Shown one piece after another: positions 12,733-45,814 of a stretch of DNA of 64,000 bases (positions are counted from its first letter, which is position 1; every line of letters begins with the position of its first letter). Source of the DNA: Sphingobacteriales bacterium (GTDB lineage: Bacteria; Bacteroidota; Bacteroidia; Chitinophagales; LD1). Below the pieces are notes generated by a model. That model saw nothing but the letters and a program-made list of their open reading frames with translations. It was not told the origin of the DNA and did no database searches. A program made the translations under genes and the position numbers. The DNA lies in assembly GCA_018262795.1 (NCBI GenBank), contig JADFDM010000002.1, forward strand, positions 186,001 through 250,000, in the 5' to 3' direction.

Positions 12733-13251
12733 ATGCACAGAATTACCCTTCTTCTCTTGGTTGGTTTCAGCGCTCTTTTTTATTCCTGCAAAAAGAATAA
12801 TGAAATAATCTACGACTTTACTCAATACACCGAAACTGATTCTACCGGAAGTATTATTGGAGGTAATGATACCACTGATTGGGGTTATGATGGGTCGTGG
12901 AGCAGCGGTGAACTATCCCTCCTTTCATTCAAAGATTCGTTAGTAGCCGGAGATTCAACGACAGGCACAGTGGAAATATCGCCCGCTTTTCCTAACCCCG
13001 GCCATGGAATCGTTCTTATTGGGGTGAATACCGAAAAATCTTGTAAGATGAAAGCGGTAGTAGTGGATGAGGATTTTCACATTCTGTACCTTGACAATCG
13101 CTTGTTTACAGGCGGACCCATATTGACGGTGCATTATCTTGGCACATCTACTGCTTTTCACAGTGGCCATTATTATCGGATGTATTATGGATTTTACAAC
13201 TCGAAAGATTCGCTTTACTACAAAGGGCATGGAGATTTGTTGATTGAATAA
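12733..13251 (+). CDS. Lipoprotein, function unknown
   Basis: A 172-residue product with a signal peptide ending in the lipobox FYS-C-KK, so it should be lipidated. The mature part has a low-complexity Thr/Asp/Gly linker, then beta-rich sequence with LSLLSFKDSLVAGDSTTGTVEI. It also has SPAFPNPGHGIVLIGVNTEKSCKMKAVVVDEDFHIL cut by short turns; the 'FPNP' element is seen in T9SS-type sorting domains but here lies in the middle of the protein. I do not recognise a family. The stop codon lies at the left edge of the duplicated GIY-YIG segment, which runs in the opposite direction. Confidence 0.75.
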   Translation: MHRITLLLLVGFSALFYSCKKNNEIIYDFTQYTETDSTGSIIGGNDTTDWGYDGSWSSGELSLLSFKDSLVAGDSTTGTVEISPAFPNPGHGIVLIGVNTEKSCKMKAVVVDEDFHILYLDNRLFTGGPILTVHYLGTSTAFHSGHYYRMYYGFYNSKDSLYYKGHGDLLIE

Positions 13252-13397
13252 ACGAGTTTCCAGTCCGCAGCATTCTGAGTGGTATATCTTGTTTGCCCGG
13301 TATTGTGCTCGTTTAATCTCCGCTCCAAATTATCAGTATGCCCAACGTAATATTTGTTCGCGGTAGCTGAGTAGAGAATGTAAACATGGAAGTCCAT
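13218..13397 (-). pseudogene. Truncated GIY-YIG nuclease gene (duplicate copy)
   Basis: The N-terminal 50 residues are identical to the intact copy at 13482-13736, including VYILYSATANKYYVG and ERRLNEH. At 13246 the match stops and the frame runs into sequence antisense to the lipoprotein gene, giving an unrelated 8-residue tail. The catalytic Glu-containing C-terminal half is lost. It is one half of a 214-bp direct duplication (339-bp offset) that also carries the hairpin and the 3' part of a tRNA. Confidence 0.9.
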
Positions 13398-13459
13398 ACG
13401 CAAAAAAATCCCGCCATTGCGGGAAGTTGTAGCGAGGGGGGAGCTCGAATCCCCGACCT
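13246..13459. repeat. 214-bp direct repeat, left copy
   Basis: The segment is repeated at 13585-13798 with only two differences noted by eye (C/T in the GIY-YIG coding part, G/A in the hairpin). It holds the N-terminal GIY-YIG coding region, the terminator hairpin and the tRNA T-arm and acceptor 3' strand. The left breakpoint falls at the stop codon of the plus-strand lipoprotein gene. Confidence 0.92.
13402..13424 (-). terminator. Terminator hairpin after the tRNA fragment
   Basis: Perfect 6-bp stem (TCCCGC/GCGGGA, 4-nt loop) followed on the minus strand by TTTTTTT. It lies between the tRNA fragment (ends 13430) and the truncated GIY-YIG start at 13397, only a few bases before that ATG. Confidence 0.8.
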
Positions 13460-13495
13460 TCCCGCTATGCAGCGGGACGCTCTAACTCACTGAGC
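13430..13495 (-). pseudogene. 5'-truncated tRNA-like fragment
   Basis: Read on the minus strand, it has a D-arm (GCTCAGTGAGTTAGAGC), an anticodon-arm region TCCCGC-TGCATA-GCGGGA, then a T-arm and 3' acceptor strand identical to those of the tRNA-Met at 13769-13842. The 5' acceptor strand is replaced by the end of the GIY-YIG reading frame. The arm has 6 paired bases and a 6-nt loop, so no normal 7-nt anticodon loop forms. It is probably non-functional. The stop codon of the intact GIY-YIG gene lies inside its D-arm. Confidence 0.75.
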
Positions 13496-13736
13496 CGACT
13501 AACCACTCAATATATTTTCGGCTCTTTTTTGCCTTTATCTCTTTCTCTCTTTTCATGGCCTCTGATCGGGTATTATATCCCTCGGAATAAACGAGTTTCC
13601 AGTCCGCAGCATTCTGAGTGGTATATCTTGTTTGCCCGGTATTGTGCTCGTTTAATCTCCGCTCCAAATTATCAGTATGCCCAACGTAATATTTGTTTGC
13701 GGTAGCTGAGTAGAGAATGTAAACATGGAAGTCCAT
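13482..13736 (-). CDS. GIY-YIG domain nuclease (UvrC-N-like, single-domain)
   Basis: An 84-residue protein of the small GIY-YIG family. VYILYSATANKYYVGHT carries the GIY/YIG pair, ERRLNEHNTG the conserved Arg/His, and RSEAMKREKEIKAKKSRKYIEWL the C-terminal helix with the catalytic-type Glu. The ATG at 13736 is preferred; a TTG two codons earlier falls at the edge of the terminator T-run. It follows tRNA-Met and its terminator on the same strand. Its last codons (VGSVS and TAG) are read from tRNA-like sequence, so gene and tRNA fragment overlap. Biochemical role in this family is not established; it could be a small homing-type or repair-type nuclease. Confidence 0.9.
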   Translation of the reverse strand: MDFHVYILYSATANKYYVGHTDNLERRLNEHNTGQTRYTTQNAADWKLVYSEGYNTRSEAMKREKEIKAKKSRKYIEWLVGSVS

Positions 13737-13798
13737 ACGCAAAAAAATCCCGCCATTGCGAGAAGTTGTAGCGAGGGGGGAGCTCGAATCCCCGACCT
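13585..13798. repeat. 214-bp direct repeat, right copy
   Basis: Counterpart of 13246-13459. In this copy the GIY-YIG gene is complete beyond the repeat edge and the tRNA part continues into an intact tRNA-Met. Confidence 0.92.
13741..13763 (-). terminator. Terminator of tRNA-Met
   Basis: Stem TCTCGC/GCGGGA with 4-nt loop, followed on the minus strand by seven T. Compared with the other copy, one base differs but still pairs as G-U. It is 6 bp after the tRNA 3' end and 5 bp before the GIY-YIG ATG. Confidence 0.8.
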
Positions 13799-13842
13799 CA
13801 GCATTATGAGTGCTACGCTCTAACCAACTGAGCTACCTCGCC
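13769..13842 (-). tRNA. tRNA-Met (CAT)
   Basis: All arms of a 74-nt tRNA can be drawn. The acceptor is GGCGAGG with CCTCGCT (G-U at the end). The D-stem is GCTC/GAGC with a 9-nt loop, and the anticodon stem TAGCA/TGCTG holds loop CTCATAA (anticodon CAT). The variable region is AGGTC, the T-stem GGGGA/TCCCC with loop TTCGAGC, and the discriminator A. The 3' CCA is not encoded. It resembles elongator tRNA-Met, although a CAT anticodon alone does not exclude the tRNA-Ile2 type. It is the last unit of the array that starts at 14118. Confidence 0.92.
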
Positions 13843-14118
13843 ATCTATTTTATTTTAAAGAACTTACTGAGAACTCGATTCCCCGACCTTCCCGCTATGC
13901 AGCGGGACGCTCTAACCAACTGAGCTACCTCGCCATCTATTTTATTTTAAAGAACTTACTGAGAACTCGATTCCCCGACCTTCCCGCTATGCAGCGGGAC
14001 GCTCTAACCAACTGAGCTACCTCGCCATCTATTTTATTTTAAAGAACTTACTGAGAACTCGATTCCCCGACCTTCCCGCTATGCAGCGGGACGCTCTAAC
14101 CAACTGAGCTACCTCGCC
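13843..14118 (-). repeat. Tandem array of three identical 92-bp pseudo-tRNA units
   Basis: Three perfect 92-bp units (13843-13934, 13935-14026, 14027-14118) precede tRNA-Met on the same strand. Each unit, read on the minus strand, is about 64 nt of tRNA-like 5' sequence followed by a 28-nt AT-rich spacer. The tRNA-like part has the 5' acceptor strand GGCGAGG, the D-arm, and the odd arm TCCCGC-TGCATA-GCGGGA, and ends in half of a T-arm. No unit has the 3' acceptor strand, so none can fold as a complete tRNA. Perfect identity points to recent expansion or to an assembly effect. Confidence 0.9.
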
Positions 14119-14129
14119 AAAACGGACGG

Positions 14130-14160
14130 CAAATATATCCGATTAAGTGAAGTTTTAAAA
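14130..14160 (-). promoter_or_regulatory. Bacteroidota-type promoter of the pseudo-tRNA/tRNA-Met array
   Basis: On the minus strand the -7 box TATATTTG (14137-14130) exactly fits TAnnTTTG. A TTTT at 14160-14157 stands 19 bp upstream in the place of the -33 TTTG box. Transcription would start near 14123, about five bases before the first pseudo-tRNA at 14118. The element overlaps the end of the metallo-hydrolase gene. Confidence 0.6.
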
Positions 14161-44425: not shown

Positions 44426-45814
44426 CTATTCCTTCACAAATTTTGCGAGGCCTTGTTCGGCACCGTCATAAAGACGCACGAAATATACTCCGGGAGAAAG
44501 GGCGGAAATATCAATGGCAGATGGAGCATTGGAAATGGAGTATTGAATTACCTTCTGCCCTACTGCATCGTATATGTTTACAGTAGCCTGTGCACTATTG
44601 CCAGTGAAAGGTATTACCAAGCTGTTGTTGGCCGGGTTAGGATACACGGAAAGGGGGGCAAAATGAGGGTTTGCATTTTCGATACCGGCAGTGGCGCATT
44701 GCCCGCTTGCTATCACCTGCACCGGGCTTAATTTATTACTCGTTGAACCATCTCCCAATTGTCCATTTCCATTAAAACCGCAGGCCCAGAAGCTGCCATC
44801 ATTTTTCAAAAAGAGCGTGTGAATAGCTCCGGCTGCGATAGCGGTCATGTTAGATAGTCCGCTCACCTGCACCGGGTAGTGCCTTTCGGAAGTAGTGCCA
44901 TCACCCAATTCTCCATCTCCATTATATCCGCAAGCCCACACGCTGCCATTATTCTTCAGAAAAAAAGATTGATAAAACCCTGCTGCAATACCGATGATGT
45001 TAGATACCCCGTTTACTTGCACCGCTGTATGTCTTTTTGTAGAACTTCCATCGCCCAACTGACCAAAAGCATTATATCCGCAAGCCCACACGCTGCCATC
45101 ATTTTTCAGAAACATGGAGTGACTACCGCCTGCTGCGATGGCGGTAATGTCGGATAACCCGATGACCCGAACCGGACTGTACTTCACGGTGTCGGTACCA
45201 TCGCCCAGTTGCCCGGCATCATTCCAACCGCAAGCCCACACACTGCCATCGCTTTTCAAAAAGAGCGAATATTCTTTGCCGCCTGCTATCGCGATAATGT
45301 CGGCTACTCCGCTCACCTGAACTGCTGTATTTCTATTGGTTGTAGAGCCATCCCCCAACTGCCCTTTCTGATTGCCTCCGCAAGCCCATACGCTGCCATC
45401 ATTTTTCAGAAAAAGAGAATGATTATATCCCGCTGCAATGGCCGTGATATTGGACAGCCCGCTCACCTGCACCGCAGTGCTTTTATTACTGTTTGCGCCA
45501 TCGCCCAATTGTCCCAAACTATCTCCGCCACAAGCCCACACGCTGCCATCATTTTTCAGAAAGAGAGTATGGTCGTGACCGGCAGAAATGGCAGTGATAT
45601 CGGAGAGACCATTCACCTGTACCGGGCTGTGCCTTTCGATAGTGCTTCCGTCTCCTAATTGCCCAAACTCGTTCCATCCAAAAGCCATTGGAGAACCGGG
45701 GCTGCTGCACAAAAAATAGTTTGAACTGGAAGAACTTCCTGAAGCGATAACTTGGGCGTTGGAGCCTGCGTTTATTCCGAATAATGCTAGGGTGATAAGT
45801 AGAAGGTTTTTCAT
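44426..45814 (-). CDS. Secreted RCC1-repeat propeller with T9SS type A sorting domain
   Basis: A 462-residue exported protein. After a signal peptide (LLLITLALFGINAGSNA) there are seven RCC1 units of about 50 residues, each with LFLKNDGSVWACG and GQLGDG motifs; the first is degenerate (AFGWNEFGQLGDG). Seven blades fit one closed propeller. The C-terminal 80 residues start LSVYPNPANNSLVIPF and continue SPGVYFVRLYDG, a T9SS type A (Por secretion) sorting domain. It is likely secreted or attached to the surface. Ligand unknown. Confidence 0.93.
   Translation of the reverse strand: MKNLLLITLALFGINAGSNAQVIASGSSSSSNYFLCSSPGSPMAFGWNEFGQLGDGSTIERHSPVQVNGLSDITAISAGHDHTLFLKNDGSVWACGGDSLGQLGDGANSNKSTAVQVSGLSNITAIAAGYNHSLFLKNDGSVWACGGNQKGQLGDGSTTNRNTAVQVSGVADIIAIAGGKEYSLFLKSDGSVWACGWNDAGQLGDGTDTVKYSPVRVIGLSDITAIAAGGSHSMFLKNDGSVWACGYNAFGQLGDGSSTKRHTAVQVNGVSNIIGIAAGFYQSFFLKNNGSVWACGYNGDGELGDGTTSERHYPVQVSGLSNMTAIAAGAIHTLFLKNDGSFWACGFNGNGQLGDGSTSNKLSPVQVIASGQCATAGIENANPHFAPLSVYPNPANNSLVIPFTGNSAQATVNIYDAVGQKVIQYSISNAPSAIDISALSPGVYFVRLYDGAEQGLAKFVKE

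Follow-up and report, generated by a model that had tools for sequence, protein, structure and literature searches.

The locus lies on the minus strand of the window, that is, of the whole stretch of 64,000 nucleotides of Sphingobacteriales bacterium DNA that was analysed. Its layout is a promoter, left half-tRNA units, an intact tRNA, a terminator, a GIY-YIG gene, a right unit and a second terminator. The features are listed from the promoter onwards.

14130-14137, minus strand: promoter box TATATTTG, TAnnTTTG-type (sequence; the box also precedes the intact tRNA-Met in L112)
14027-14118, minus strand: half-tRNA unit 1, a 'left' unit, with the tRNA-Met 5' part, a hairpin, a partial T arm and a linker (sequence, TRF, Rfam)
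14074-14091, minus strand: 18-nt hairpin TCCCGCTGCATAGCGGGA of unit 1
13935-14026, minus strand: half-tRNA unit 2 (TRF, Rfam)
13982-13999, minus strand: 18-nt hairpin of unit 2, identical to that of unit 1
13843-13934, minus strand: half-tRNA unit 3 (TRF, Rfam)
13890-13907, minus strand: 18-nt hairpin of unit 3, identical to that of unit 1
13853-13863, also 13945-13955 and 14037-14047, minus strand: boxA-like motif GTTCTTTAAAA in the linker (sequence)
13768-13842, minus strand: intact elongator tRNA-Met (CAT) (ARAGORN; Rfam tRNA, 67 bits)
13741-13763, minus strand: terminator (hairpin plus U-run) that separates tRNA-Met from the nuclease gene (sequence)
13482-13736, minus strand: GIY-YIG nuclease ORF, whose 3' end enters the right tRNA remnant (Pfam PF01541, E=1.5e-19)
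13430-13500, minus strand: 'right' unit, with a degenerate tRNA 5' part, the same 18-nt hairpin and an exact tRNA-Met 3' half
13460-13477, minus strand: 18-nt hairpin of the right unit, the same as in the left units
13402-13424, minus strand: second terminator, a duplicate of the first (sequence)
13246-13397, minus strand: second GIY-YIG gene copy, truncated

The array itself (13843-14118) consists of three identical 92-bp units directly 5' of the intact tRNA-Met. TRF reports a repeat at 13815-14119 with a period of 92, 3.3 copies and a 100% match, and a separate repeat search agrees. Each unit starts with GGCGAGGTAGCTCAGTTGGTTAGAGCG, which represents tRNA positions 1-27, followed by the hairpin TCCCGCTGCATAGCGGGA, by AGGTCGGGGAATCGAGTTCTC, which is a damaged T arm, and by the linker with GTTCTTTAAAA, which we take to be a boxA-like antitermination motif. 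GTTCTT motifs resembling GTTCTTTAAAA are found in the linkers of L079, L086, L089, L099 and L135. The hairpin (18 nt, a 7-bp stem with a GCAT loop) takes the position of the anticodon arm and is the sole strong element when the units are folded, and the 3' acceptor strand is absent from all three. With the Rfam tRNA model, each unit scored 21.7 bits over model positions 8-63, below the cut-off of 29, and ARAGORN called the real tRNA-Met only. The units, sub-threshold and without a 3' acceptor strand, are therefore not functional tRNAs. The hairpin was also considered as a terminator, which was rejected because no U-run lies 3' of it, and a Leu_leader match at the relaxed Rfam threshold (23.2 bits against a cut-off of 50) was taken as chance. 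At gathering level, Rfam gave no match in the locus except the real tRNA-Met.

The preliminary description had recognised the three identical minus-strand units between a TAnnTTTG-type promoter and an intact tRNA-Met, as well as their tRNA 5' part, the GC hairpin in place of the anticodon arm and the missing 3' acceptor strand. TRF, ARAGORN, Rfam and folding bear out this anatomy of the units; what had been missed is the presence of this hairpin in the remnant at 13430-13500, and of two GIY-YIG copies in the locus. The RNase P-like junction that had been ascribed to the units is not supported, as a unit with no 3' acceptor strand has no acceptor stem. The sole normal RNase P site should thus be the last junction, before the real tRNA. 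Judged by its sequence and by its place in L112, the TATATTTG box is the native tRNA-Met promoter, now 5' of half-tRNA unit 1, and the elongator tRNA-Met of this locus is apparently single-copy. The array copy number at this locus rests on one assembly. An assembly artefact, which had been named as a possible refutation, is unlikely as a general explanation, since such arrays are present in independent assemblies (L026, L089, L143, L155 and L138). Elsewhere in the window, 150-bp tandem repeats with about 76% identity occupy 44748-45112 and 45381-45669, and these are probably part of a gene for a repeat-domain protein.

On the other side of the tRNA, the nuclease gene encodes a protein of 86 residues with almost nothing beyond the catalytic domain. 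Pfam finds GIY-YIG, the weaker T5orf172 and nothing else, and Y8, Y19, G21, R29, H33 and E66 of the GIY-YIG domain are invariant across an alignment of 26 sequences. Both the PF01541 domain and the catalytic residues of a GIY-YIG nuclease are thus in place. The loss in the right unit is the opposite of that in the left units, with the 5' part degenerate and the 3' half exact. The 3' half, the terminator and the truncated GIY-YIG copy are identical to the intact copy at 212 of 214 nt. At position 28 this tRNA-Met has a T, which is the first hairpin base of the left units, where the 22 relatives compared have a C. The shared T28 agrees with a conversion event involving the tRNA and a left unit; being a single nucleotide, it could also be a chance mutation.

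The hairpin recurs elsewhere in this genome. Its 16-nt core, CCCGCTGCATAGCGGG, has exactly six copies, all within tRNA remnants: four at the tRNA-Met array locus and two in tandem pseudo-tRNA-Gly units. The latter, at L007 (C16, 1922-2375), are two identical units of 227 bp situated between tRNA-Gly (TCC) and tRNA-Thr, 3' of the intact tRNA-Gly and upstream of an elongation factor Tu-like gene, and they bear the identical hairpin within different tRNA flanks. One hairpin at both tRNA-Met and tRNA-Gly suggests some spread of the hairpin itself. At L014 (C11, 1976-2490), the initiator tRNA-Met is followed by two 3'-half copies with the hairpin TCCGCCACAGGCGGA, and these flank a divergent GIY-YIG gene, the second locus of such a gene in the genome. 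Four 111-bp units stand 5' of tRNA-Gly (GCC) at L162 (C12:380900-382700), with the hairpin TCCCGAAAGTAATCGGGA in the D arm and the motif GTTCTTTAAA; a nuclease copy was looked for at this locus and none was found. The hairpin sequence varies among loci of one genome.

A search with the nuclease as the query returned 80 loci, mostly from Bacteroidota and a few from other phyla. An intact ARAGORN tRNA lies on the same strand within 600 bp upstream in 56 of the 80, and most other relatives show fragments of tRNA, which lie at contig ends or in Ns or are 3' halves. The tRNAs concerned are those for Ala, Met, Val, Leu, Cys, Asp, Arg, Asn, Gly and Lys, and a tRNA 3' half is situated 3' of the nuclease gene. 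Forty right units were located by the tRNA 3' end alone, with the hairpin playing no part in the search, and in 34 of them the junction bears a hairpin of about 7 bp, as a rule immediately past the anticodon arm. It lies in the T arm in some lineages (Asp, Cys and one Arg locus) and in the D arm for Gly. G-U pairs are scarce in the stems of these right-unit hairpins. Left units with tRNA 5' halves and the hairpin were found 5' of the tRNA at 14 loci, some of them arrayed (three units at L026, four at L089), and two hairpins per unit occur in L089, L043, L056 and L106. The order at L143 is three left units, tRNA-Ala, nuclease, right unit, nuclease and right unit, which makes it nearly a twin of the tRNA-Met array locus.

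The tree of the GIY-YIG relatives, which is built on a short alignment and leaves many forks unresolved, contains clades for the Met, Val, Leu, Cys and Asp loci and a large Ala group. The tRNA identity changes 16 times on it, against 34 (30-35) for shuffled labels. Nuclease lineage thus tracks the target tRNA type, as is characteristic of a homing element. In the phage and plasmid collections there were no close relatives, all matches being below 60% identity (about 30-45%), and the viral contigs contained none. Carriage by a phage or plasmid is therefore not indicated. Among the hairpin-marked arrays, many lack a GIY-YIG gene in their vicinity, for example those at L138, L151 and L155 and the Gly loci of this genome itself. 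The array at L138 has right units only, 3' of the tRNA and its terminator; elsewhere, left-only arrays precede intact tRNAs.

Two further patterns were observed among these loci. Hairpin-bearing half-tRNA units are found at a Thr-Tyr-Gly-Thr tRNA cluster in L136, L137, L141, L147, L154, L155 and L161. This cluster is a hot spot of such units across many of the order's genomes, and no GIY-YIG gene was found close to it. In L039, L064 and L068, the leading tRNA-Ala just upstream of the nuclease has an abrupt start at its anticodon or close to it, as though the left end of the element lay at the cut site, in a location outside tRNA genes.

Comparison of orthologous sites shows where the array has been placed. 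Among loci that have an upstream MBL-fold gene in common, the half-tRNA insertion is present at the tRNA-Met array locus and at L104 and L106, and is absent from L112, L110, L114, L122 and L129, where a single intact tRNA-Met lies 3' of the promoter. In L112, the promoter TATATTTGCCGCTCGTTTT abuts the intact tRNA; in the array locus, a near-identical string abuts half-tRNA unit 1, and the spacing from the TATATTTG box to the tRNA-like 5' end is equal in the two. Unit 1 therefore stands where the 5' half of the native tRNA would be, with the working tRNA displaced inwards by 276 bp. Occupied and empty alleles, a mark of homing elements, thus exist at orthologous sites, in a comparison between species that uses the upstream flank only, downstream synteny not being preserved. 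The presence of the insertion is sporadic, even within a genus; vertical inheritance with loss could also produce such a pattern.

To survey the hairpin more widely, the pattern GAGCNTCCCGN{4,9}CGGGARGGTC was used. It matched in 50 of 398 order-level genomes and 23 of 395 phylum-level genomes, and a reversed control pattern gave no match in the same two sets. Covariation was assessed at the positions that the pattern leaves free. Among the 78 distinct hairpins of the order search, the first inner pair followed Watson-Crick rules in 77 (against a mean of 35.9 and a maximum of 51 over 10,000 shuffles), and the second was paired in 60 of 72 (shuffle mean 26.6, maximum 41). Pairing at the third inner pair was not far above chance in these hairpins. 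The excess of pairing over chance at the free positions identifies the module as a hairpin with a short loop and arms some 7 bp long, kept by compensatory changes. Selection is not proven by pairing alone, as repair that perfects palindromes could be another source of it. An identical hairpin was found on two contigs of the genome G021.

The observed anatomy, its recurrence, the covariation, the nuclease clades, the sites with and without the insertion and the intact catalytic signature lead us to lean towards reading the array as one side of a compact element that targets tRNA genes and is centred on a free-standing GIY-YIG nuclease, and as the residue of a homing-type element. The nuclease gene sits at its target, and the anticodon region has given way to the hairpin in both flanking halves; this region would be the cut site. 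For cleavage, homing, the repair route, the role of the hairpin and transcription, we infer the following. The nuclease would act on a tRNA gene that has no insertion, cutting it within the anticodon arm or beside it. The tRNA halves flanking the cut would serve as homology arms for the copying-in of the element, which would bring a complete replacement tRNA. The 5' half would stay with the promoter, from which the locus would be transcribed, and the 3' half with the terminator, with the complete tRNA and the nuclease gene between them. The hairpin would mark the cut site in both halves, so that a second cutting is prevented. If the inner tRNA were later cut, its broken 5' half could be repaired against the left unit on the sister chromosome, which would add one unit of 5' half, hairpin and linker, that is, a 92-bp left repeat. 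Repair of its 3' half against the right unit would in turn add a unit of 3' half, nuclease and hairpin. Breaks repaired against half copies would thus line up identical units head to tail on each side; at this locus these would be the three left units and the second copy of the nuclease gene.

Several observations weigh against the homing reading. Arrays exist without a nearby GIY-YIG gene, which means that they persist, or arise, without a local nuclease. Left and right units number 3:1 here, so the counts are not given by homing alone. The intact inner tRNA should itself be cut, and its escape is not accounted for; nor does homing at tRNA-Met explain the same hairpin at the tRNA-Gly (TCC) locus. 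As for the role of the hairpin, it may be a mark of spent targets, an RNA that stops the half-tRNA from misfolding with its intact counterpart, or a mobile hairpin recognised as DNA. The few G-U pairs in right-unit hairpins lean toward a role in DNA.

Plain tandem duplication would dispense with homing altogether: a hairpin-bearing tRNA pseudogene would have formed a single time, and slippage, or unequal crossing-over between tRNA repeats, would have raised its copy number, with the nuclease a bystander. Recent passive duplication would fit three units that do not differ at any base and a right-side duplicate that agrees at 212/214 nt, and arrays without a local nuclease are known. The earlier suggestion that the units are by-products of unequal exchange is close as regards copy number. 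However, duplication leaves unexplained why a covarying hairpin recurs at one position within the halves of many kinds of tRNA, and why 56 of 80 nuclease relatives lie just downstream of tRNA genes in clades that follow tRNA identity. We consider it rather unlikely. We would judge equally improbable that the hairpin is the mobile unit, a REP-like palindrome that the GIY-YIG protein, acting in trans, inserts into duplicated tRNA genes, with the arrays as landing sites. Such mobility would suit the identical 18-mer in tRNA-Met and tRNA-Gly remnants with different flanks, the shared hairpin in G021, the double-hairpin units (L089, L043, L056, L106), the nuclease-less arrays and the shortage of G-U pairs, which is expected of a DNA palindrome. 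Against it, all six exact CCCGCTGCATAGCGGG copies lie within tRNA remnants, unlike dispersed REPs, Pfam finds no Y1/HUH domain, and hairpin sequences differ among the loci of one genome. A slightly better, still rather unlikely prospect is that the minimal nuclease and the covarying hairpin act jointly as a new mobile system of Bacteroidota. The hairpin, as a DNA cruciform or as RNA, would then be recognised and pass from one tRNA gene to others of another identity, reaching nuclease-less copies in trans as well, and would build half-tRNA arrays at essential tRNA genes.

A functional array transcribed with tRNA-Met, whether as a processing spacer, a decoy or a producer of half-tRNAs, had been raised in the preliminary description, which spoke of a short-RNA family made from a tRNA gene. 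The native promoter 5' of the array, the boxA-like motif in each linker and the left-only arrays before intact tRNAs would agree with this. Nevertheless, with the anticodon arm and the 3' acceptor strand missing there is no tRNA fold, and a decoy for anticodon nucleases was rejected since the anticodon arm is the very part replaced. The sporadic presence even within a genus and the right-only array 3' of a tRNA and its terminator (L138) speak against it as well. The units appear instead as one side of a recurrent GIY-YIG nuclease/tRNA-gene element, and we think a functional array very improbable.

Mobile DNA has a preference for landing at tRNA genes. Hairpin-marked half-tRNA arrays were not found described in the open-access full text searched. 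In the 2006 survey of GIY-YIG proteins, the passages that mention tRNA do not treat linkage to tRNA genes (PMC1564403). What the literature searched does not describe is a chromosomal system of about 0.5 kb, without integrase or intron, that brings its own replacement tRNA and leaves the used target halves marked with a hairpin. If the homing reading is true, it would account for unannotated tRNA fragments and small 'GIY-YIG family proteins' beside Bacteroidota tRNA genes. It would also make it possible to test directly how essential single-copy genes are exploited, and tandem arrays generated, by selfish nucleases.

Among known systems, islands and prophages integrate at tRNA 3' ends by means of a tyrosine integrase. 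They resemble the present element in the displaced tRNA fragment at the far end and the intact tRNA that is kept, whereas here there is no integrase, the element measures about 0.5 kb, the break lies in the anticodon arm and 5' halves are left too. Group I introns with homing endonucleases sit in the anticodon loops of tRNA genes, and likewise combine an insertion in the anticodon region, an encoded nuclease and preserved function of the host tRNA. However, Rfam matched no intron model here at either the gathering or the relaxed threshold, and function is kept by a separate complete tRNA instead of by splicing. REP elements with RAYT transposases also pair short imperfect palindromes with a small nuclease-like gene. 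Here the protein is a GIY-YIG nuclease and not a Y1 tyrosine transposase, Pfam finding no Y1 (HUH) domain, and the hairpins lie inside tRNA halves instead of being dispersed between genes, as seen for the six CCCGCTGCATAGCGGG copies. The closest known relative in kind is SegB of T-even phages, a GIY-YIG homing endonuclease whose free-standing gene neighbours tRNA genes (PMC13096335). In phage T6, SegB sets a worked-out precedent: there, tRNAs are amplified in tandem by a GIY-YIG nuclease via microhomology between tRNA and segB (PMC13096335). In both cases a GIY-YIG nuclease gene adjoins tRNA genes, the homology here being membership of the GIY-YIG domain; in the present element the nuclease 3' end overlaps a copy of the tRNA 5' part. 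The present element differs from SegB in that it is chromosomal in Bacteroidota and not in a phage, that its protein of 86 residues is almost the catalytic domain alone, and that its units are half tRNAs, not whole ones, with a standard hairpin at the presumed cut site. Set beside these systems, the element is best read as a tRNA-linked free-standing GIY-YIG homing endonuclease with unusual parts.
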